NCBI GenBank assembly: GCA_022703505.1
Contig: JAKLDN010000009.1
Coordinates: 1 to 64,000 of the forward strand
DNA: 64,000 nucleotides
Source of the DNA: Spirochaetota bacterium
GTDB lineage: Bacteria > Spirochaetota > Spirochaetia > Treponematales > UBA12059
Direction: 5' to 3'
In this document: positions 7,452-17,614 of the stretch, in pieces
Numbering within the stretch: the first letter of the stretch is position 1
How the letters are laid out: each line of letters opens with the position of its first letter
Program-made: the position numbers and the translations under genes
The notes under the pieces: model-generated
Told to the model about the DNA's origin: nothing
Databases searched by the model: none
The model's input: only the letters and a program-made list of their open reading frames with translations

Positions 7452-9587
7452 TTACGGGCGGTGCGGGGGCGCGGAAGGAGCGGGACCCTCGCCCTTCGAG
7501 GCGCCCGAATCCTCCAGGGCGTCGATGTACGAGAGGTTCAGGCGGCCCATCTTGTCCACCTCGAGGAGCTTGACGTCCACCTTCTGGCCTTCCTTGAGCA
7601 CGTCCGTGACGGCGTTGACCCGGTGGCGGGCAAGACGGGAGATGTGGCACAGGCCTTCCTTGCCGGGCATGATCTCGATGAAGGCCCCGAAATCCATGAT
7701 CTTCTTCACGGTACCGTGGTAGATCTTCCCGACCTCGGGATCCTCCACGATGGCCAGGATGGCGTCCCGGGCCTCGTAGGCGTTCTTCTGCTGCTTGCCG
7801 TAGACCGTGCAGGATCCGTCGTCCTCGATGTTGATCTCCACGGAGTACATCTCGCAGAGGGCCTTGATGTTCTTGCCGCCGGGGCCGATGATGGCGCCGA
7901 TCTTCTCGGGATTGACGTGGAGGGAGACGATCTTCGGGGCATACTCGGAGATGTCCGAGGCCGGCGCGGGGAGGGCCTGGTTCATGATGCCCAGGATATG
8001 CATCCGGCCGCGCCGCGCCTGGTCCAGGGCCTTGGTCAGGATCTCCGTGGAAACCCCGGAAATCTTGATGTCCATCTGGAAGCCCGTGATCCCGTTCTCC
8101 GTCCCGGCCACCTTGAAGTCCATGTCGCCCAGGTGATCCTCGTCGCCCAGGATGTCCGAAAGCACGGCAAAGCGGCTGCCCTCGGTGATGAGGCCCATGG
8201 CGATGCCCGCCACGGGTTTCTTGAGGGGCACCCCGGCGGCCATCATGGAAAGGGAGCCGCCGCACACCGAGGCCATGGAGGAGGAGCCGTTGGATTCCAG
8301 GATCTCGGAGACCACGCGGACGGTGTAGGGGAATTTTTCCTTCGGGGGAAGGACCTTTTCCAGGGAGCGGCGGGCGAGGTTCCCGTGCCCGATCTCCCGC
8401 CGGCCGGTGCCGAGCCGTCCCACCTCACCGACCGAGAAGGGGGGGAAGTTGTAGTGGAGCATGAACCGGTCCCGCCGGTCACCCTCGATGTCGTCCAGGA
8501 TCTGCTCGTCGAAGACGGTGCCCAGGGTGGTGACCGCCAGGGCCTGGGTTTCCCCTCGGGTGAAGAGGGCCGATCCGTGGGTTCGGGGCAGGATGTCGAT
8601 CTCGCAGGTGATGGGCCGGATATCCTCCAGGCCGCGGCCGTCCACCCGGGTCCCGCGGTCCAGGATGCCGGAGCGGAGGATCTCGTACTGGAGGTCCTCC
8701 ATGAGGGCGTTGAAGAGCTTCTTCTGGACGTCATCCTCCGAGACCTGGGGGAAGGCGGCCAGGGTCTCCTTGATGGCCGCGGAGACGGCGGCTCCGCGCT
8801 CCTGCTTGACCTTGGTGAACAGGGCCTTGGAGAGCTTCTCCCGGGCCATCGCCGCGATCTCGTCCTTCCGGGCCAGCTGCACGGACATGGGCGCGAGGGG
8901 CAGCTTGGGCTTGCCCGCCTCGGACCGGAGCTTCTCGATCATGGCGCAGATGTCCGAGATGGGTCCCCGGGCGCGCTCGATGGCCTCGATCATCAGGGTT
9001 TCGGCGACCTCGGAGGCATCCCCCTCCACCATGGTGATTCCGTCCTTGGTCCCGGCCACGATGATCTCGAGCTGGCTGCGGCCGATCTGGTCGAAGGTGG
9101 GATTGATGACGAACTGGCCGTCCACGTGGCAGACCCGCACCGCCGCGATGGGACCCGCGAAGGGGATGTCCGAGATGTGGACCGCGGCGCTGGCCGCGTT
9201 GATCCCGACGATGTCCGGAGGATTGACCTGGTCCGTGGAGATGCAGGTCGGTACGACCTGGATCTCTCGGCCGAAGGCCTTGTCGAAGAGGGGGCGCATG
9301 GGCCGGTCGATGAGGCGGGAGACCAGGATCTCCTTGTCCTTCGGACGGGTCTCTCGCTTGATGAAGCCGCCGGGAATCTTGCCGGCGGCGTAGTACTTCT
9401 CGTTGTATTCCACGGTGAGGGGGACGAAGTCCAGGCCCTCGGTGGCGGAGGAGGCGCAGCAGGCGGTGGCGATCACCGCGGAGCCGCCGAATTTCGCGAA
9501 CACGGCGCCGTTGGCCTGCTTGGCCATGTGGCCGGTCTCGAGGATCAGTTTGTCGCCGTTCACATCGTACGCGACGGAATGTTTCAT
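7452..9587 (-). CDS. pnp: Polyribonucleotide nucleotidyltransferase (PNPase)
   Basis: PNPase degrades RNA 3'-5' by phosphorolysis and is a core RNA-decay enzyme. The product has two RNase PH domains: the first includes GGFIKRETRPKDKEILVSRLIDRPMRPLF, shared by the family, and the second holds the active centre with GRREIGHGNLARR and SNGSSSMASVCGG. A KH domain (IGAIIGPGGKNIKAL) and an S1 domain (VGKIYHGTVKKIMDFGAFIEI) follow. I place the start at ATG 9587 (711 residues), where the family usually begins with an xxVxYDVNG motif; upstream in-frame starts at 9605 and 9653 exist. Its place after rpsO is the classic bacterial order. Confidence 0.97.
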   Translation of the reverse strand: MKHSVAYDVNGDKLILETGHMAKQANGAVFAKFGGSAVIATACCASSATEGLDFVPLTVEYNEKYYAAGKIPGGFIKRETRPKDKEILVSRLIDRPMRPLFDKAFGREIQVVPTCISTDQVNPPDIVGINAASAAVHISDIPFAGPIAAVRVCHVDGQFVINPTFDQIGRSQLEIIVAGTKDGITMVEGDASEVAETLMIEAIERARGPISDICAMIEKLRSEAGKPKLPLAPMSVQLARKDEIAAMAREKLSKALFTKVKQERGAAVSAAIKETLAAFPQVSEDDVQKKLFNALMEDLQYEILRSGILDRGTRVDGRGLEDIRPITCEIDILPRTHGSALFTRGETQALAVTTLGTVFDEQILDDIEGDRRDRFMLHYNFPPFSVGEVGRLGTGRREIGHGNLARRSLEKVLPPKEKFPYTVRVVSEILESNGSSSMASVCGGSLSMMAAGVPLKKPVAGIAMGLITEGSRFAVLSDILGDEDHLGDMDFKVAGTENGITGFQMDIKISGVSTEILTKALDQARRGRMHILGIMNQALPAPASDISEYAPKIVSLHVNPEKIGAIIGPGGKNIKALCEMYSVEINIEDDGSCTVYGKQQKNAYEARDAILAIVEDPEVGKIYHGTVKKIMDFGAFIEIMPGKEGLCHISRLARHRVNAVTDVLKEGQKVDVKLLEVDKMGRLNLSYIDALEDSGASKGEGPAPSAPPHRP

Positions 9588-9614
9588 CGTAGGTTCTTTC
9601 TCCATTGTCCGGTA

Positions 9615-9648
9615 AATAAAAGGGCCCGAACAACCGTTCGTTCGGGCC
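9615..9648 (-). terminator. Rho-independent terminator after rpsO
   Basis: A perfect 9-bp stem, GGCCCGAAC (9623-9631) with GTTCGGGCC (9640-9648), is followed on the minus strand by CTTTTATTT. It lies between rpsO and pnp, so pnp expression would depend on read-through or on processing of this hairpin, as in the well-studied E. coli rpsO-pnp region. Confidence 0.8.
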
Positions 9649-9664
9649 TTCACGTCAGGTCCGC

Positions 9665-9934
9665 CTACTTGCGGATACCCAGTTTTTCGATGAGGGACCG
9701 ATAACTCTGTAGGTTCTCGGCCTGCAGGTATTTCAGGAGGCGGCGGCGCTGGCCGACCAGCTGCAAGAGGCCCCGCCGGGAATTGGTGTCCTTCTTGTTC
9801 GCCTTGAAGTGCTCCGTTAGATACTTGATCCGCTCCGTGATGAGGGCGATCTGCACCTCCGTGGCCCCGGTATTCTTCTCGCCGGCGCCGTACTCGAGGA
9901 CCACGCGAGCCTTGTCCTCTTTGGTCATTGCCAT
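9665..9934 (-). CDS. rpsO: 30S ribosomal protein S15
   Basis: S15 binds 16S rRNA early in 30S assembly. The sequence matches the family throughout: GATEVQIALITERIKYLTEHFK, then HKKD-type loop NKKDTNSRRGLLQLVGQRRRLLKYL, and the C-terminal YRSLIEKLGIRK. I chose ATG 9934 (89 residues) because AGGAG lies 7 bases upstream; the open frame upstream of it is non-coding. It lies 25 bases after ribF and ahead of the terminator. Confidence 0.97.
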   Translation of the reverse strand: MAMTKEDKARVVLEYGAGEKNTGATEVQIALITERIKYLTEHFKANKKDTNSRRGLLQLVGQRRRLLKYLQAENLQSYRSLIEKLGIRK

Positions 9935-9959
9935 ACCTATACTCCTTGCCTCTGCATTG

Positions 9960-10745
9960 CTAGCCGTGTATCGAAAATCGCAGGAACCCGGGAGGATCCC
10001 CCCCCGCCGCCTCGACGAGCGCGCTTTCTCCGGAAAGCACGCCCAGGCCGGTTTTTCTCCAACCATCCGCCGTCGACGCTTCCGCCGGGTATATGCCGGG
10101 AGGGGGCAGAACCTGCCGGATCCCGTCGTACCTCAGGGCGTCGCCCTCCTTCGAAGGAACGAACTCCCGAAGATCCAGGACATAGGGCCGGTCGAGCATG
10201 GCGAAGGCGTCCGGCATCCTCCCCTCCAGTACGGCCCGCCGAATCCGGCTGGAACTCACGGCACGGCCGTGGTACAGGACGGGATCCACGATCTCGGTAT
10301 CCACATTCAACGAAGAGCCGATGCGTCGAACGCTCTCGGCGTCCGTGGAAAGCCGGTGCCCGCAGCGGAAATCCGATCCCACCGCCAGGTACCGGGCTTG
10401 CCCCTTGTCCGCGAGGGCGCTTAGAAACTCGGTCCCCGTCAGTTTACTGAAATTTCCGGAAAAGTCAATCAGGACGCAAGTCCCTATTCCTGACTCCTCA
10501 AGGCTTTCCAGCTTCTGCCGGAGGGTGAGTACGGCCCCGTGGAAGGTCTCGGGATGCAGGAGTTCCTTGGGATTCTGCCGGAAGGTGACGACCGTGGGCT
10601 CCAGGTTCTCCGCCCGGGCCAGGATACGTCCGATCAGCACCCGGTGGCCCGCGTGGACTCCGTCGAAGACACCGATGGTGACCGCGGAAGGCCTTGCGGA
10701 CCCTCCCGCTCCTTCAGTCCAGGAACCCCAGTCCAGGATTCTCAT
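9960..10745 (-). CDS. ribF: RibF-family FAD synthetase; riboflavin kinase domain not recognisable
   Basis: The N-terminal ~185 residues are a clear FMN adenylyltransferase nucleotidyltransferase domain: GVFDGVHAGH (HxGH-type motif, ~25-34), VVTFRQNPKELL, and SSSRIRRAVLEGRM (the ISSTxIR motif, ~164-177). Bifunctional RibF proteins are about 305 residues and continue with a flavokinase barrel beginning GxVxxGxxxGRxLGFPTAN. Here the protein is only 261 residues, that motif is absent, and the tail (PYVLDLREFVPSK...GIYPAEA) is short and divergent. It may make FAD from FMN only. Its ATG overlaps the truB stop (ATGA). Confidence 0.88.
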   Translation of the reverse strand: MRILDWGSWTEGAGGSARPSAVTIGVFDGVHAGHRVLIGRILARAENLEPTVVTFRQNPKELLHPETFHGAVLTLRQKLESLEESGIGTCVLIDFSGNFSKLTGTEFLSALADKGQARYLAVGSDFRCGHRLSTDAESVRRIGSSLNVDTEIVDPVLYHGRAVSSSRIRRAVLEGRMPDAFAMLDRPYVLDLREFVPSKEGDALRYDGIRQVLPPPGIYPAEASTADGWRKTGLGVLSGESALVEAAGGDPPGFLRFSIHG

Positions 10746-11635
10746 GCCGATGTCCCGAGGACCACCCGGTAGGAATACGTACCGTCCCGGATTTCCAGGA
10801 CGCCTAGGAAGGTCCCCTCCGCGGAGAAGACTCCCCGGAATCCCACACCCTCCGGTGGTTTGGCGAAGCGCCCCTTGGTGAGAGGACCGCCGCGTAGGAA
10901 GAAGGCCTCCTGCCCCGGAGCGAGCCGTACCGGCGGGAGTCCCAGGGTTTCGCAGAGTTCCGGATCCAGGACCCGCAGCGACGAGGAGTCCGCTGCCTCC
11001 GGCGGTATCCCGTCTTCGATCCGGAAGGGGCCGGAAGCTTCCCGGACCAGGGTCTCCAGGTGTGCCCGTGTCCCGCAGGCCTCCGCGATGTCCCGGGCTA
11101 GGGACCGGATGTAGGTGCCCTTGGAACACCGGACCCGCATACGGGCCAGCCCGTCCGAATAGTCCAGGAGATCCAGGCCGAGGATGGTCACCGGGCGGGG
11201 CTCGGGACGGACGTCCTCGCCCGCCAGGGCCCTCTCGTAGGCGCGCCTGCCCTCGATGTGGACGGCGGAAAAGGCGGGAGGGGCCTGGAGGATGTCCCCC
11301 CGGAAGGTAGGAAGGACGGCTTCCAGGGCGGCGCGGTCCGGCAGGGGCCCCCGGGCGATGATGGTTCCCTCCGGGTCCAGGGTGTCCGTTTCCGTCCCGA
11401 AGCGGATTCCCGCCAGGTAGACCTTGTCGGAAGCCGTGAAGTATTCGGAGAGGCGGGCGTATCGGCCCACCAGGGCGACCAGGACGCCCCGGGCGAAGCG
11501 GTCCAAGGTTCCCGTGTGCCCGACCCGGCCGGTGTCGAAGGCGCGCTTGACCGACCCCAGGGCCTCGAAGGAGGTGATCCCGGAGGGCTTGTCCAGTACC
11601 AGGAAGCCGTTGGAATCCGAGGAGCGTTTCCTCAC
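10742..11635 (-). CDS. truB: tRNA pseudouridine(55) synthase
   Basis: TruB converts U55 in the T-loop of tRNAs to pseudouridine and also acts as a tRNA chaperone. The catalytic motif GHTGTLDRFARGVL puts the nucleophilic Asp at residue 45. The family signatures FLVLDKPSGITS near the N terminus and RVRCSKGTYIRSLARDI in the second half are present. It has 297 residues with a divergent C-terminal domain. The start is GTG inside a GTGA overlap with the rbfA stop. Confidence 0.96.
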   Translation of the reverse strand: MRKRSSDSNGFLVLDKPSGITSFEALGSVKRAFDTGRVGHTGTLDRFARGVLVALVGRYARLSEYFTASDKVYLAGIRFGTETDTLDPEGTIIARGPLPDRAALEAVLPTFRGDILQAPPAFSAVHIEGRRAYERALAGEDVRPEPRPVTILGLDLLDYSDGLARMRVRCSKGTYIRSLARDIAEACGTRAHLETLVREASGPFRIEDGIPPEAADSSSLRVLDPELCETLGLPPVRLAPGQEAFFLRGGPLTKGRFAKPPEGVGFRGVFSAEGTFLGVLEIRDGTYSYRVVLGTSA

Positions 11636-11979
11636 GAAAACAGGTCCTTGATCTTCTCGCCCATCTCGAAGCCCTTGCGGATGCCATCGTCGGCCAGGAA
11701 CTTGAGCTTGGGGGTCAGCCGGAGGCGTATCTTCCGGCCGACCGCCGCCTGGATGAATCCGGCGGCGTTGTTCAGGCCCTCCACCCCCCGGGTCAGGGCC
11801 TCACCCTCCTCGAAGGTGGAGACGTGGACCCGGGCGGCGCTGGCGTCCCGGGACACTTCCACCCGGGTGATCGAAAGGAAGGCGTTTATTCGGGGATCCT
11901 TGATCTCCCCGGAGAGGATCAGGGAGGCGATCTCCGACCGGAGCTCCTCCTCCACCCTCTTTCTCCGTATGTCGTCCAT
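11632..11979 (-). CDS. rbfA: 30S ribosome-binding factor RbfA
   Basis: RbfA helps mature the 5' end of 16S rRNA during late 30S assembly. The 115-residue protein has the single KH-like domain: RRKRVEEELRSEIASLI at the N terminus, DPRINAFLSITRVEVSRDASAARVHVS in the middle and RLTPKLKFLADDGIRKG near the end. It starts with ATG four bases after infB and overlaps truB. Confidence 0.96.
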   Translation of the reverse strand: MDDIRRKRVEEELRSEIASLILSGEIKDPRINAFLSITRVEVSRDASAARVHVSTFEEGEALTRGVEGLNNAAGFIQAAVGRKIRLRLTPKLKFLADDGIRKGFEMGEKIKDLFS

Positions 11980-11983
11980 AGCC

Positions 11984-14812
11984 TCAGCTCAACTTGCGCG
12001 TAACCTGCACCTGCTCGAAGATCTCGAGGATGTCGCCCACCTTGATGTCGTTGCAGTTCTCCACGCCGATGCCGCACTCGAAGCCCGCGGCCACTTCCTT
12101 GGCGTCGTCCTTGAAGCGCTTGAGGGAGGTGATCTTTCCGCTGAAGATCTCGATGCCCTCCCGGATGACGCGCACGCCGGCGTTCCGCTTGACCGTGCCT
12201 TCGGTGACCATGCAGCCCGCCACCACGCCGATCTTCGGGACGTGGAAGGTTTCCCGGACCTCCGCCTGGGCGATGTCCTGCTCCTTGTACTCCGGAGCCA
12301 GCATGCCCTCCATGGCCTTCTCGATCTCCTCGACGGCTTTGTAGATGACGTTGTACTTCCGGATGTCCACCTTCTCCTGGTCCGCAAGGAGCTTGGCCTT
12401 GGGGGTCGGGCGGACGTTGAAGCCGATGATCAGGGCGTTGGAGGCGCTGGCCAGCATGATGTCGCTCTCGTGGATGGCCCCCGCGCTGGCGTGGATCACG
12501 TTGAGGCGCACTTCCTTGGTGGACAGCTTCTCCAGGGAGGACTTCAGGGCTTCCACGGAACCGTGGACGTCGCCCTTGATGACAACCTTGAGCTCCTGGA
12601 CCGTGCCTTCGTGGATGGTGTCGTAGAGGTTGTCCAGGGTGACCTTCTTGACGGTCTTGGCCTCCTCGTACCGCTTGAGCTCCTGGCGCTTGTCGGAGAT
12701 CTGGCGGGCGAACTTCTCGTCCTCCACCGCCTCGAAGGGATCCCCGGCGTTGGGCATGCCCTCGAACCCGATGACCTCCACCGGGAAGGAGGGAGGAGCC
12801 TCGTCCACCTTGACCCCGTGGTCGTCGTACAGGGCCCGGACCTTTCCGGGGTAGATGCCCGCCACGAAGGAGTCGCCGACCCGCAGGGTTCCGCGCTCGA
12901 TGATGACCGTGGAAACGATGCCCCGCCCGTGGTCGATCTTGGACTCCAGGACCTTGCCTTCCGCGCGGCAATCGTAGTTCGCGGTCAGTTCAAGCACCTC
13001 GGCCTGCAGGAGGATGGCGTCCAGCAGTTCCGAAATGCCCTGCTTCTTGAGGGCGCTGATCGGGCAGAACATGGTGGTCCCGCCCCAGTCCTCGGCCACC
13101 AGGCCTTTGTCGGAAAGCTGGGTCTTCACGCGGTCGGGATTGGCGTCGGGCAGGTCGATCTTGTTGACCGCCACGATGATGGGCACCCCGGCCGCCTTGG
13201 CATGATCCAGGGCTTCCAGGGTCTGGGGCATGACGCCTTCCGTGGCCGCCACGACCAGGACCACGATGTCCGTGACCTGGGATCCCCGGGCGCGCATCAT
13301 GGTGAAGGCCTCGTGGCCCGGGGTGTCCAGGAAGGTGATCTTTCCCTTGCCCGTGTCCACCTGGTAGGCGCCGATGTGCTGGGTGATGCCGCCGAACTCC
13401 CCGGCTACCACGTCCGTCTTCCGGATGGCGTCCAGGAGCTTGGTCTTGCCGTGGTCGACGTGGCCCATGACCGTAACGATGGGCGGCCGGTGGACCAGAT
13501 CCTCGGGATTGTCCTTCTGCTTCTCGATGACGGTCTCGTCGTAGAGGGAGACCACCCGGACCTCGCAACCGTACTCGCCGGCCAGGATGGTCGCGGTATC
13601 CGAGTCGATCTGCTGGTTGATGGTGGCCATGAATCCCAGCTTCATGAGCTTCTGGATGAGCTCGCTGGGCTTCAGGTTCATCTTCCGTGCGAGTTCCGAA
13701 ACGGAGATGGTCTCGAGGATGTCTATCTTGGTCGGGATGGGGTTCGCGACAGCTCCCTGCTTCTTCTTGGACAGGTTGAGCTTCTGGGAAAATTCCTCTT
13801 CCCGATCCTTCTTGTTATAGGTGGGTTTCTTGGACTTGATGAAGCGCTTGGGACCCTGGGGCCTCTTGTCGATGGTCGGGGAAGTGCCGGCGCCGGGTCC
13901 GCGCCCCGGGCCCCCGGGTCCCCGACCGGGACCGCCCTGATAGCCTCCCGGACGGCCCTGATAGCCGCCCGGCCGGCCCTGGTAGCCGCCGGTGCCCTGT
14001 CCGGGACCGCCCTGGTACCCTCCGGGGCGGCCCTGATAGCCTCCCGGCCGGCCCTGGTAGCCGCCCGACTGTCCCTGGTAGCCTCCGGATCCCTGGCCGG
14101 GACCGCCCTGGTACCCGCCGGGACGGCCCTGATAGCCTCCCGGTCGGCCCTGATAGCCTCCCGACTGTCCCTGGTAGCCTCCGGATCCCTGGCCGGGACC
14201 ACCCTGGTACCCGCCCGATCCTTGGCCGGGACCACCCTGGTACCCGCCGGGACGGCCCTGGTAGCCTCCCGGTCGGCCTTGGTAGCCTCCCGACTGTCCC
14301 TGGTAGCCTCCGGATCCCTGGCCGGGACCGCCCTGGTACCCGCCGGGGCGACCCTGGTAGCCTCCCGGCCGGCCCTGGTAGCCCCCGGTGCCCGAAGGGC
14401 TTCCCTGATATCCGCCGGTCCTGCCGGCGGGCGGAGTATACGGACGAGGCGCGGGTGAACCGTCCTCCCGTCGCTCCGGAGCAGCGGGTCTGGGTTTCGG
14501 TTCGGAAGCGGCAACCGGAGCCGCGGAAGGGGCTTCGGGCCGGGGGGCCGGCTTTTCCACGGGCCGGGCGGGGGCCGCCGGGGTCTCCGAGGCCGCGGGC
14601 ACAGCCGCCCGATGCTCGGCGTCGGAGGCCTTGGCCTCCTCTTCATGACGGGCCACCACCCGGACCTGGGGTTTCTTCACGACGACTTTCTTTTTGACGA
14701 CGACCTTGCGTTTCTCTCCGGAAACCGTCTCCTGCTGCTCCTCCGCGGGCCGCGGCTTGGGCTGCTTTATGAGGGTCGCCTTCGATTTAGGGTTCTCGTT
14801 GGTATCGGACAT
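11984..14812 (-). CDS. infB: Translation initiation factor IF-2, with GGYQG-repeat N-terminal region
   Basis: IF-2 is the GTPase that brings initiator tRNA to the 30S and promotes subunit joining. In order: a basic, Ala/Pro-rich N terminus (1-130), a GGYQG repeat tract (133-307), a basic linker, the IF2_N module (about 362-420), the G domain with GHVDHGKT (450-457), DTPGH (496-500) and NKID (550-553), then domains II, III and IV ending in a beta barrel. At 942 residues it is long because of the disordered front part. The low-complexity tract has 20 GGYQG units and resembles RGG/YG-type condensate-forming segments. It follows nusA by 9 bases. Confidence 0.97.
13892..14416 (-). repeat. In-frame tandem repeats encoding GGYQG units within infB
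   Basis: This roughly 525-base tract encodes 20 GGYQG pentads. They form a higher-order unit of 32 residues (96 bases): two GGYQGRP, one [11 protein letters not shown] and one GGYQGQS. The unit is seen about 3-4 times, with one duplicated [11 protein letters not shown] and a truncated last copy. Near-identity at DNA level indicates recent expansion or contraction by recombination while keeping frame. Confidence 0.95.
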
Positions 14813-14821
14813 AGTCTCCCT

Positions 14822-16276
14822 TTACGATTCCTGGTCGTCTTCGTATTCGAAGCTGAGCTCGACGCCGCAGCTCGGGCAGTGGGTCATCTCAGGCGTCACC
14901 CGAGCGCCGCAATCCGGACATTCATAGGCTTCCTCTTCTTCCCCGGTCCCTTCCTCGGGGATACCCTCTTCGGCCGCCGCCTCTTCCTCGACCACCTCGA
15001 CGTTCTCGTCGATGATCCCGCGGATGGCCTGAAGCTCCTCGGCGGAGATACCACCCAGGGCGGCCTGCTGCTCCTCCGAGAGGGAGATGAAATCCTCGAT
15101 GAGCTCGATCCCGCCGGCCTTCAGGGCGGCCACGGCGCTTTCGGGCACTCCCGGCAGCTCGGAGAGCCGCGTGATCTCCTCCTCCTCCTCGGTGAAGAGT
15201 TCGGAGACCGCGCGTTTTAAGTCCACGGAGCGGTCCATCTGGTAGAACTGCTCCTCGGTCTTTACGTCGATGTTCCAGTCGCACAGCCGGTTGGCCAGCC
15301 GTACGTTCAGGCCCTGCTTTCCGATGGCGACGGACAGCTGGTTGTCCGGGACGACCGCAAGGGCCATGCGCTTGGGCTCGTCCAGGATGAAGACTTCCTT
15401 TACATCCGCCGGGGACAGGGCGTTCTTGATGAACCGTTTGGGATCGATGTCGTACTTGAGGACGTCGATCTTCTCCCCCTCCAGCTCTCGGATGATGGAC
15501 TGGATGCGGATGCCCTTGAGTCCTACGCACGCTCCCACGGGGTCCACGTCCTCCCGCTTGGAGAAGACGGAGATCTTGGTGCGGTATCCGGGTTCCCGGA
15601 CGATCTTGAAGACCTCGACGATGTTGTCGTAGATCTCCGGCACCTCGAGCTCCAGGATCTTGCGGACGAACTCCGCGTGGGTGCGGGACAGGACGATCTG
15701 GGGACCCGTCTTGGTCTTGTTGACCTCTACGATGTAGGCCTTGATCCGGTCGTTGGGATGGTAGGTCTCCCGGGGGGACTGGTACTTCTTGGGAAGCACC
15801 CCTTCCACCCTGCCCAGGTCCACGTAGATGTTGCCGTTCCGGTCGCGCTGGTAGTATCCGATGATGATCTCGCCGACCTTGGACTTGTACTCCGCGTAGA
15901 GGGTGTCCCGGGAGATCTCCCGGAGGTTCTGCCGCGTGGTCTGCTTGGCCAGCATGACGGATTGGAGGTCGAACTCCCGGGGATCCACGGGAAGCTCCAG
16001 GATGTCCCCGATTTCGGCTTCCTCGCTGTAGGCCCGGGCCTCGTCCAGGGTGATCTCCAGGACCGGATCGTCGAGTTCCTCGACGATGGTCTTCTTCGCG
16101 AAGATGTCCACTCCCTCGTAGTTTTCCCGGAAACGCACGACCGCGTTTTCCGAGGTACCGTAGCGTTTCTTGTACGCCGCGAGGAGAGAGTCTTCGATCG
16201 TCTTAATCACGAGATCCTCGGATATGCCCTTCTCGTAGATTAGCTGGCGTATCGCCTCGGCCATTTCTGAAGACAT
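14822..16276 (-). CDS. nusA: Transcription factor NusA with C-terminal zinc ribbon
   Basis: NusA binds RNA polymerase and RNA to control pausing, termination and antitermination. The 484-residue protein has the N-terminal polymerase-binding domain (1-~130), an S1 domain (~133-200, VGEIIIGYYQRDRNGNIYVDLG), two KH domains (GACVGLKGIRIQSI and LSVAIGKQGLNVRLA) and one helix-hairpin-helix-like acidic repeat (~365-425). After a Glu-rich linker comes a C4 zinc ribbon at 453-470: CPDC, 12 residues, CPSC. That extension is not part of the standard NusA. It lies between rimP (4 bases) and infB (9 bases). Confidence 0.96.
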   Translation of the reverse strand: MSSEMAEAIRQLIYEKGISEDLVIKTIEDSLLAAYKKRYGTSENAVVRFRENYEGVDIFAKKTIVEELDDPVLEITLDEARAYSEEAEIGDILELPVDPREFDLQSVMLAKQTTRQNLREISRDTLYAEYKSKVGEIIIGYYQRDRNGNIYVDLGRVEGVLPKKYQSPRETYHPNDRIKAYIVEVNKTKTGPQIVLSRTHAEFVRKILELEVPEIYDNIVEVFKIVREPGYRTKISVFSKREDVDPVGACVGLKGIRIQSIIRELEGEKIDVLKYDIDPKRFIKNALSPADVKEVFILDEPKRMALAVVPDNQLSVAIGKQGLNVRLANRLCDWNIDVKTEEQFYQMDRSVDLKRAVSELFTEEEEEITRLSELPGVPESAVAALKAGGIELIEDFISLSEEQQAALGGISAEELQAIRGIIDENVEVVEEEAAAEEGIPEEGTGEEEEAYECPDCGARVTPEMTHCPSCGVELSFEYEDDQES

Positions 16277-16280
16277 GGCG

Positions 16281-16730
16281 TTAAGCTCCCTCCTGTGCGT
16301 AATCGAGCCGCGCTTTTGCTATGGATGCGTATTCAACGGTCCGTTCGCCCCAGGCTCCCCGGATCGTCATCGCGGACGGGCCTGCCTGGGCTATGCGGCC
16401 GGCGAGCCACTCGTCCCCCTCCTTGAGGAGGATCCGAATGCCCCGGCCGGTGAATATGGCGTACTCCCGATCGGAACGGATCCATCGATCCACCCCGGGG
16501 GAGGCGACCTCAAGGTGGAAGTCCTGCTCGGAAAGCAGGACCTGCAGCCTGGGCTGGATGAGCCTGTGGGCCCGGGAACACTCGTCGATCCCCGTACCGC
16601 CGGGGGCGTAGATTACCGCCCGGACCTGCACGGAGCCGCGATGACGGCTGACGGACAGGTCCACGAGGCCCAGTCCGGCGCCCGAGAGGAGTTCCTCCAG
16701 ATCCTTCCTGTATCTGTCGCTTTCCACCAT
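16281..16730 (-). CDS. rimP: Ribosome maturation factor RimP
   Basis: RimP assists 30S subunit assembly. The 149-residue protein has the family core: an N-terminal alpha/beta domain (RYRKDLEELLSGAGLGLVDL, with VRAVIYAPGGTGIDECSRAHRLIQPRL) and the signature LEVASPGVDRWIRSDREYAIFTGR leading into the C-terminal barrel. I chose ATG 16730, with GTAGGT just upstream; the open frame extends further but has no coding character. It is the first gene of the nusA-infB operon, directly behind a promoter and a leader terminator. Confidence 0.93.
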   Translation of the reverse strand: MVESDRYRKDLEELLSGAGLGLVDLSVSRHRGSVQVRAVIYAPGGTGIDECSRAHRLIQPRLQVLLSEQDFHLEVASPGVDRWIRSDREYAIFTGRGIRILLKEGDEWLAGRIAQAGPSAMTIRGAWGERTVEYASIAKARLDYAQEGA

Positions 16731-16736
16731 ACCTAC

Positions 16737-16763
16737 AAAAAAAGAGTCGTGGGAACGACTCTT
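16737..16763 (-). terminator. Intrinsic terminator in the rimP-nusA-infB leader (putative attenuator)
   Basis: On the minus strand AAGAGTCGT pairs perfectly with ACGACTCTT (positions 16763-16755 and 16750-16742) around a 4-base loop and runs into seven Ts (16743-16737). It lies about 30 bases after the predicted transcription start and 7 bases before the rimP start codon, so it would stop transcription before the operon unless bypassed. A small hairpin (CTTAT/ATAAG) just upstream could compete. Confidence 0.8.
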
Positions 16764-16798
16764 CTTATCCCTAAGAATAAGCTCTCTACGGAAGGTAT

Positions 16799-16826
16799 AG
16801 TATAAGAAGCCGCTCCCCTTCGTCAA
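16799..16826 (-). promoter_or_regulatory. Sigma-70-type promoter of the rimP-nusA-infB operon
   Basis: On the minus strand TTGACG (16826-16821) and TATACT (16804-16799) are separated by 16 bases. The predicted start near 16792 gives a leader of about 62 nucleotides containing the terminator hairpin. Confidence 0.8.
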
Positions 16827-16827
16827 G

Positions 16828-16853
16828 CCGCGGGGACGGCACCGTCCCCGCGG
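16828..16853. repeat. Perfect 12-bp palindrome around GGGGACGG/CCGTCCCC
   Basis: CCGCGGGGACGG (16828-16839) and CCGTCCCCGCGG (16842-16853) are perfect reverse complements with a 2-base loop. It lies between the end of comF and the rimP promoter, two bases from the -35 box. It could end comF transcription, but there is no T-run. Core palindromes of this kind are commonly dispersed repeats. Confidence 0.6.
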
Positions 16854-16909: not shown

Positions 16910-17614
16910 TCAATCCGCCGCCAGGACCAGGGCATCCACCCGACGTGTCCCCGCTGCCTTGAGCACCCGGGCGCACTCGGAGAGGGTCGCGCCCGTGGTC
17001 AGCACGTCGTCCAGGAGCACGACCCGCGCCGGCGCCTTTGCTCCCTTTCGGACGCGGATCTTTCCCGTCAGGTTGGACATCCGGGCGGAGTAATCCAGGG
17101 TTTTCTGGGAGGCTCCTTCCGCCCTCTCCAGGCAGCGCATCACGGGCACCCCCCTTCGTTCCAGGCTCCGGGCCAGGTCCTCGACCTGGTCCCATCCGGT
17201 TTTGCGGATCTTGCCCTTCCGGAACGGGACGGGAACCAGGACGGTCCCCGGATACCCTTCCCGAAGGCGGTCGTATACCCGGGAGGCCAGGAAGCGGGCC
17301 AGGGGCCGCACTCCCCGTATCTTGTAGGAGATGAGGAGATCCTTGATCCGCCCCGCATACTCCCAGAGGGGGTACGCCGAATCGAAGGCGAAGCTGCGGT
17401 CCCGGCAGCGCATGCAGAGCCCCCGCTCGGAAACGAGGGGCTTGCCGCATATCGGACATCGTTCTCCCCGGATCCGGGGGAGGTCCTCCTCGCATTCGCC
17501 GCACAGGGGATACGCCCGGTCGGCTTCCTCGAGGAGCCCGCGGCCGCAAAGGACACAGCACCGGGGAAACAGGATCTCCAGAGCCCTGCTCAAAAGGGAA
17601 GGCGAACAGTCCAT
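16910..17614 (-). CDS. comF: ComF-family phosphoribosyltransferase-like protein
   Basis: The 234-residue protein has two N-terminal zinc-binding CxxC pairs (CCVLCG...CGEC and CPICG...CMRC) followed by a type I PRTase fold with the signature VVLLDDVLTTGATLSEC. ComF proteins are linked to DNA uptake and, in several bacteria, to handling of internalised single-stranded DNA and DNA repair; a biochemical activity is not settled. It follows mutS by 40 bases on the same strand, which fits a DNA-metabolism role. Confidence 0.92.
   Translation of the reverse strand: MDCSPSLLSRALEILFPRCCVLCGRGLLEEADRAYPLCGECEEDLPRIRGERCPICGKPLVSERGLCMRCRDRSFAFDSAYPLWEYAGRIKDLLISYKIRGVRPLARFLASRVYDRLREGYPGTVLVPVPFRKGKIRKTGWDQVEDLARSLERRGVPVMRCLERAEGASQKTLDYSARMSNLTGKIRVRKGAKAPARVVLLDDVLTTGATLSECARVLKAAGTRRVDALVLAAD

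Follow-up and report, generated by a model that had tools for sequence, protein, structure and literature searches.

The 64,000-nt window (the whole stretch of spirochaete DNA that was analysed, contig JAKLDN010000009.1) carries on its minus strand a rimP-nusA-infB operon, and the region between its first gene, rimP (16281-16730), and the upstream gene comF (16910-17614) holds a promoter followed by a putative intrinsic terminator. The operon unites functions in transcription, ribosome maturation, translation initiation and RNA decay. It agrees with the preliminary description of this DNA, and rimP, nusA, infB, rbfA, truB and pnp are backed by Pfam domains. The features of the locus are as follows.

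16821-16826, minus strand: promoter -35 hexamer TTGACG (promoter scan; a similar promoter occurs in relatives)
16799-16804, minus strand: promoter -10 hexamer TATACT (promoter scan; a similar promoter occurs in relatives)
16791-16793, minus strand: likely transcription start, placed from the promoter position about 7 nt past the -10 hexamer
16757-16782, minus strand: stretch corresponding to the candidate antiterminator seen in relatives, with GCTTATTCTTA, a GNRA loop (GGGA) and TAAGAAGAGTC
16742-16763, minus strand: terminator hairpin AAGAGTCGT-TCCC-ACGACTCTT, assigned from sequence, fold and conservation
16737-16743, minus strand: U-tract of seven Ts, two of them shared with the 9-bp stem
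16281-16730, minus strand: rimP, first gene of the operon (Pfam RimP_N)
14822-16276, minus strand: nusA, with NusA_N, S1, KH and a C-terminal zinc ribbon (Pfam, alignment)
11984-14812, minus strand: infB, encoding IF-2 (Pfam)
7452-11979, minus strand: rbfA, truB and pnp (Pfam), ribF and rpsO (open reading frames read by eye), all co-directional

The N-terminus of the encoded IF-2 (11984-14812) contains a long repeat run, apparently a low-complexity extension preceding the IF2_N domain.

The two promoter hexamers are separated by a 16-nt spacer and match the consensus at 10 of 12 positions. The hairpin arms, AAGAGTCGT at 16763-16755 and ACGACTCTT at 16750-16742, form nine perfect base pairs around a TCCC loop, and 6 nt (GTAGGT) separate the U-tract from the rimP ATG at 16730. 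The succession of consensus promoter, hairpin, T-run and rimP start reported in the preliminary description is present as described, all on the minus strand, with two corrections: the perfect 9-bp hairpin and the seven Ts both exist, although two Ts had been counted twice, in the stem and in the run, and the hairpin, said to lie within ~30 bases of the promoter, is indeed close but begins 35 nt from the end of the -10 hexamer. If transcription starts near 16792, the leader RNA would be ~56 nt long. The GC content of the leader is 39 % (16736-16805) versus 66 % for the window.

The gap between the U-tract and the rimP start is only 5-8 nt in the window (region 16728-16743) and in several related genera, and inspection by eye shows no Shine-Dalgarno sequence at a suitable distance in any of these; rimP translation may therefore be weak, or the GTG codon that comes next may serve as its start. 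In the gap between comF and the promoter, immediately before the -35 box, an inverted repeat of 11 bp (CGCGGGGACGG-TG-CCGTCCCCGCG, 16829-16852) is present, perfect and GC-rich. It has no T-run and is possibly the end or an insulator of comF transcription. Its interpretation as a repeat element was dropped, as the genome contains just one copy of its 18-bp core.

The sequence at 16737-16763 has the hallmarks of an intrinsic terminator, namely a GC-rich hairpin with a T-run directly after it. This is the only run of at least seven Ts on the minus strand of the window (66 % GC), and the 25-nt hairpin and tail occur once in the window at up to three mismatches (expected, 0) and, in the whole 3.66-Mb genome, only at this site and on its own reverse strand. 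Folding of the minus-strand leader gave z = -2.6, with 4 of 200 shuffles equally good. An automated terminator scan of the window did not list this hairpin, probably as a result of a stem rule that takes in the T-run. A chance origin was rejected on the basis of the single-copy occurrence in window and genome, together with the excess of such hairpins over shuffles in leaders of the same order.

Conservation of the putative leader terminator

NusA was detected in 57/58 relatives and in 148/150 genomes sampled from the phylum, and upstream regions were taken from the 58-relative set and from a hand-picked, by-family subset of the 150 phylum genomes. The rimP gene was located in 107 of 109 nusA loci, and a strict terminator survey, searching 200 nt upstream of rimP, covered 106 leaders; outside it fell L024, which lies at a contig end, L068 and L086, where rimP could not be located, and L078, where tblastn detected no nusA. 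The preliminary description had made conservation of the hairpin a decisive point, and the relatives' leaders bear it out: the hairpin is conserved through the order and in much of the phylum. A strict terminator was found upstream of rimP in 47/56 leaders of the same order (4.4 in shuffles), in 5/7 leaders of the class (0.9 in shuffles) and in 29/43 other leaders of the phylum (2.5 in shuffles). A looser, post hoc search of 450 nt in the leaders lacking a strict match added L034, L036, L047, L010 and L017, in which the terminator lies further upstream, as well as L018 and L027, whose stem has a bulge or a long loop, and the phylum leader L066, with a terminator at -343. Within 450 nt, no comparable terminator was present in the order leaders L007 (G032) and L041 (G036) or found in several phylum leaders, including L075-L077 of family f14; the element seems, from these sequences, to have been lost or replaced in L007, which belongs to a 1.1-Mb relative from the order, and in the f14 leaders. 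Wherever the hairpin is conserved it is accompanied by a U-tract, with the distance to the rimP anchor ranging from 11 to >150 nt.

Spirochaete stems usually read GAGUCG/CGACUC, some with wobble or compensatory changes. In an alignment of 29 distinct hairpins (A1), hand-picked from the 47 order leaders with more divergent hairpins omitted, so that the figures describe that subset, 4/7 stem pairs change on both sides and 3/7 are invariant, while slid versions of the alignment contain zero both-side changes; the percentage of paired positions in A1 arises partly by construction, since the sequences had been chosen as hairpins. RNAalifold applied to 16 leaders predicted the terminator alone, with zero compensatory pairs in that subset.

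A 27-nt covariance model built from the A1 hairpins (R1) was run on the 58 whole genomes. In 47 of the 57 relatives having nusA, it matched 470-849 bp ahead of that gene and on its strand; most of the matched leaders had been in the training set (G025, G030, G044 and G049 were outside it), and G019, with its match on another contig, is excluded from the 47. As read from the match table, the hit upstream of nusA is the best of its genome in 46/47 cases, the exception being G026. R1 also matched 71/80 loci from named records, which by title represent spirochaete or unassigned metagenome genomes and are partly the same genomes as in the first set, and loci of other families of the class and phylum, many of them weakly.

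The promoter is retained along with the hairpin. A promoter-like site with a score of at least 8 lies 27-58 nt (median 33) ahead of the hairpin in 46/47 order leaders; this threshold is lenient by itself (77/81 leaders observed versus 38.6 expected), but in 42/47 order leaders no more than 2 % of the shuffles of that leader contain an equally good site. The upstream gene is comF in most of the family and another gene elsewhere (translations of the non-comF neighbours were read by eye). As terminator and promoter stay with rimP while the upstream gene varies, the element is assigned to the rimP operon. Leader-peptide attenuation was rejected because there is no conserved leader open reading frame: the window leader has none, and elsewhere only short, unconserved ones occur. 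A known riboswitch or T-box was likewise rejected, since an Rfam search of the window leader yielded no match at gathering level and a search of 20 loci by E-value returned one tRNA and sub-threshold matches only.

A candidate antiterminator hairpin

Families f4 and f2 and some genera of f1 carry a segment, GAUUCUYYUUA, that is complementary to UAAGRAGAGUC, the latter containing the 5' arm of the terminator; the segment itself resembles the terminator 3' arm, GACUCUUUUU. GATTC is present in 41/97 distinct leaders versus 2.4 in shuffles. The complementarity reaches p <= 0.05 in 7/7 leaders of f4, 1/1 of f2, 3/19 of f1, 1/11 of f3 and 0/9 of f5, and in 20/48 further leaders from named records. 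All 12 distinct pattern-found sequences having a 4-nt loop close with a GNRA loop, of seven kinds. In an alignment of 12 ungapped sequences (A5), which omits longer or bulged hairpins and thus favours the best-formed cases, 0/11 pairs change on both sides and the covariation score does not exceed that of shuffles; the RNAalifold prediction, limited to the terminator, likewise speaks against this hairpin. The copy in the window (16757-16782) forms 9/11 pairs (p = 0.13), and an alternative 7-bp hairpin at 16781-16764 is compatible with the terminator and more stable than the candidate antiterminator. Judged from sequence, the structure is a candidate antiterminator in some relatives; in the window it is weak and is not an established part of the leader.

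Related attenuators in other bacteria

In 2010, Naville and Gautheret (PMC2965389) described an attenuator in the rimP leader and proposed NusA feedback for it. Their terminator, too, belongs to the rimP-nusA-infB 5' leader, at 4-130 nt from the gene, and its general form has no visible antiterminator. By position, the window element agrees with this rimP-leader definition; its stem does not, the published motif being GGGc/gCCC (PMC2965389) and the spirochaete one GAGUCG/CGACUC. Within the order, GGGC-type stems occur only in L018, L027 and L004. The main text of PMC2965389 makes no mention of spirochaetes, Treponema, Leptospira or Borrelia.

The gammaproteobacterial rimP leader family RF01770 had 0 matches in the window and 0/58 relatives above the cut-off, while E. 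coli, as positive control, matched at 102 bits; conversely, R1 had no match in E. coli at E up to 10. The metY-rimP-nusA leader of E. coli resembles that of the window in placing termination signals before rimP in this operon, but differs in having two tandem terminators behind a tRNA gene. We regard the element as a spirochaete variant, outside RF01770, that would act in the manner of the rimP-leader. The original paper on NusA autoregulation in B. subtilis is reportedly that of Mondal in 2016. In B. subtilis, NusA is stated to be autoregulated through NusA-stimulated termination in the 5' leader (review passage in PMC12288461), and NusA has also been said to control its own expression from the E. 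coli operon (statement in PMC6511841). Like the B. subtilis operon in that account, the window has a leader terminator that would meter transcription into the nusA operon, here with a promoter upstream of it; NusA dependence is reported there (PMC12288461, passage cited above) and is suggested here by analogy.

Literature searches found no description of a nusA-operon attenuator in Spirochaetota, and the consulted part of a paper on Borrelia RNA ends mentions no leader of the rimP-nusA-infB operon. The kind of device is thus already known from other bacteria, the new elements being the spirochaete stem and, in some relatives, the GNRA-capped hairpin. These observations would extend the nusA-operon attenuator to Spirochaetota, with a conserved stem unlike the published one. 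The 56-nt leader with one main hairpin may be a very simple system in which to study termination tuned by NusA, and relatives that have or lack the GNRA-capped hairpin would naturally lend themselves to comparing feedback that includes an antiterminator with feedback that does not.

Proposed mode of action, alternative readings and NusA

The element is probably a transcription attenuator of the rimP-nusA-infB operon in which the fraction of polymerases stopped is most likely set by NusA. Its best-supported part is a premature terminator that would meter entry into the operon; anatomy and conservation are directly observed, and termination is predicted from them. RNA polymerase would start at the promoter, transcribe the ~56-nt leader and meet the intrinsic terminator just before rimP, where a fraction of polymerases would stop while the remainder read into rimP-nusA-infB. 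As NusA is expected to favour pausing and hairpin formation, plentiful NusA would raise termination and so lower NusA and operon output. NusA is a plausible sensor of the attenuator by analogy, on the basis of the published rimP-leader proposal (PMC2965389) and the review statement on B. subtilis (PMC12288461). NusA is stated to help suboptimal hairpins and U-tracts (passage in PMC8060035), and the uninterrupted U-tract of this leader would accordingly suggest a partial rather than strict NusA dependence. The absence of the GGGc/gCCC motif and of an RF01770 match, and the lack of such a terminator in L007, L041 and several phylum leaders, also weigh against the attenuator reading. In some relatives, the terminator 5' arm may pair instead with the upstream near-copy of the 3' arm. 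The resulting hairpin, with its GNRA loop, would arise before the terminator and would need to give way for the terminator to form. A more elaborate version, in which Spirochaetota possess a lineage-specific NusA attenuator whose stem letters co-evolved with NusA, and in which many Spirochaetaceae have a two-state switch that uses the GNRA-capped hairpin as an antiterminator, displaced by the terminator during NusA-prolonged pausing, is regarded as quite unlikely.

Several other readings were weighed against the NusA-responsive attenuator. The short leader, its uninterrupted U-tract and the lack of a convincing alternative structure in the window would fit a fixed attenuator that involves no feedback, stops a constant share of polymerases and so offsets a strong promoter to set operon dosage. 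This is unlikely, given that the stem is kept in sequence as well as in shape across families, beyond what a plain terminator needs, and that B. subtilis regulates the same operon via its leader (PMC12288461, as above). The GATTC excess (41/97 versus 2.4 expected) and the 12/12 GNRA loops would suit a reader other than NusA, such as RimP, a ribosomal protein, NusG or Rho, or a condition, acting on the GNRA-capped hairpin or the conserved stem, and RimP is mentioned as a conceivable regulator in the consulted text of PMC2965389; the second hairpin is, however, missing or non-significant in most f1, f3 and f5 leaders, lacks covariation and is weak in the window, which makes such a reader doubtful.

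Two further readings would separate the hairpin from control of transcription into rimP. That it affects how well the rimP mRNA is translated or how stable it is, instead of terminating transcription, might be suggested by a U-tract 5-8 nt from the start codon and by the missing well-spaced Shine-Dalgarno sequence, but such a role would not need the T-run, which nevertheless follows every conserved hairpin at variable distance from rimP, and this reading is considered very improbable. It is still less credible that the hairpin is simply the 3' terminator of comF, unrelated to rimP control, and this reading was rejected: comF does precede the hairpin co-directionally in the window and most of the family, yet a promoter intervenes between comF and the hairpin, and other families, which have a different upstream gene, keep both promoter and terminator.

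The C-terminal residues 451-474 of NusA form a zinc ribbon (Pfam Zn_ribbon_3), the four cysteines of which are invariant in 8 aligned NusA sequences. A CxxC-CxxC C-terminus is present in 79/80 NusA proteins from named records and in 10/20 other families sampled, one C-terminus from each of the 20 being compared with the stems. An association between ribbon and stem type is a lead only, which shared ancestry explains equally well as co-evolution: NusA proteins with the ribbon come mostly from families having GAGUC or GAGCC stems, and in six families (f16, f25, f27, f32, f35 and f41) ribbon-less NusA accompanies GUGG-type (GUGG/CCAC) stems. Among the exceptions without the ribbon, f9, f23 and f30 have GAGUC stems, f36 has another stem and f14 has no such terminator, while f7, f18 and f42 possess the ribbon and other stems. 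In family f18 (L070, L081, L082 and L084), a much longer stem of the GAGCGUUGGUUU...AAACCGACACUC type occupies the same place in the rimP leader.
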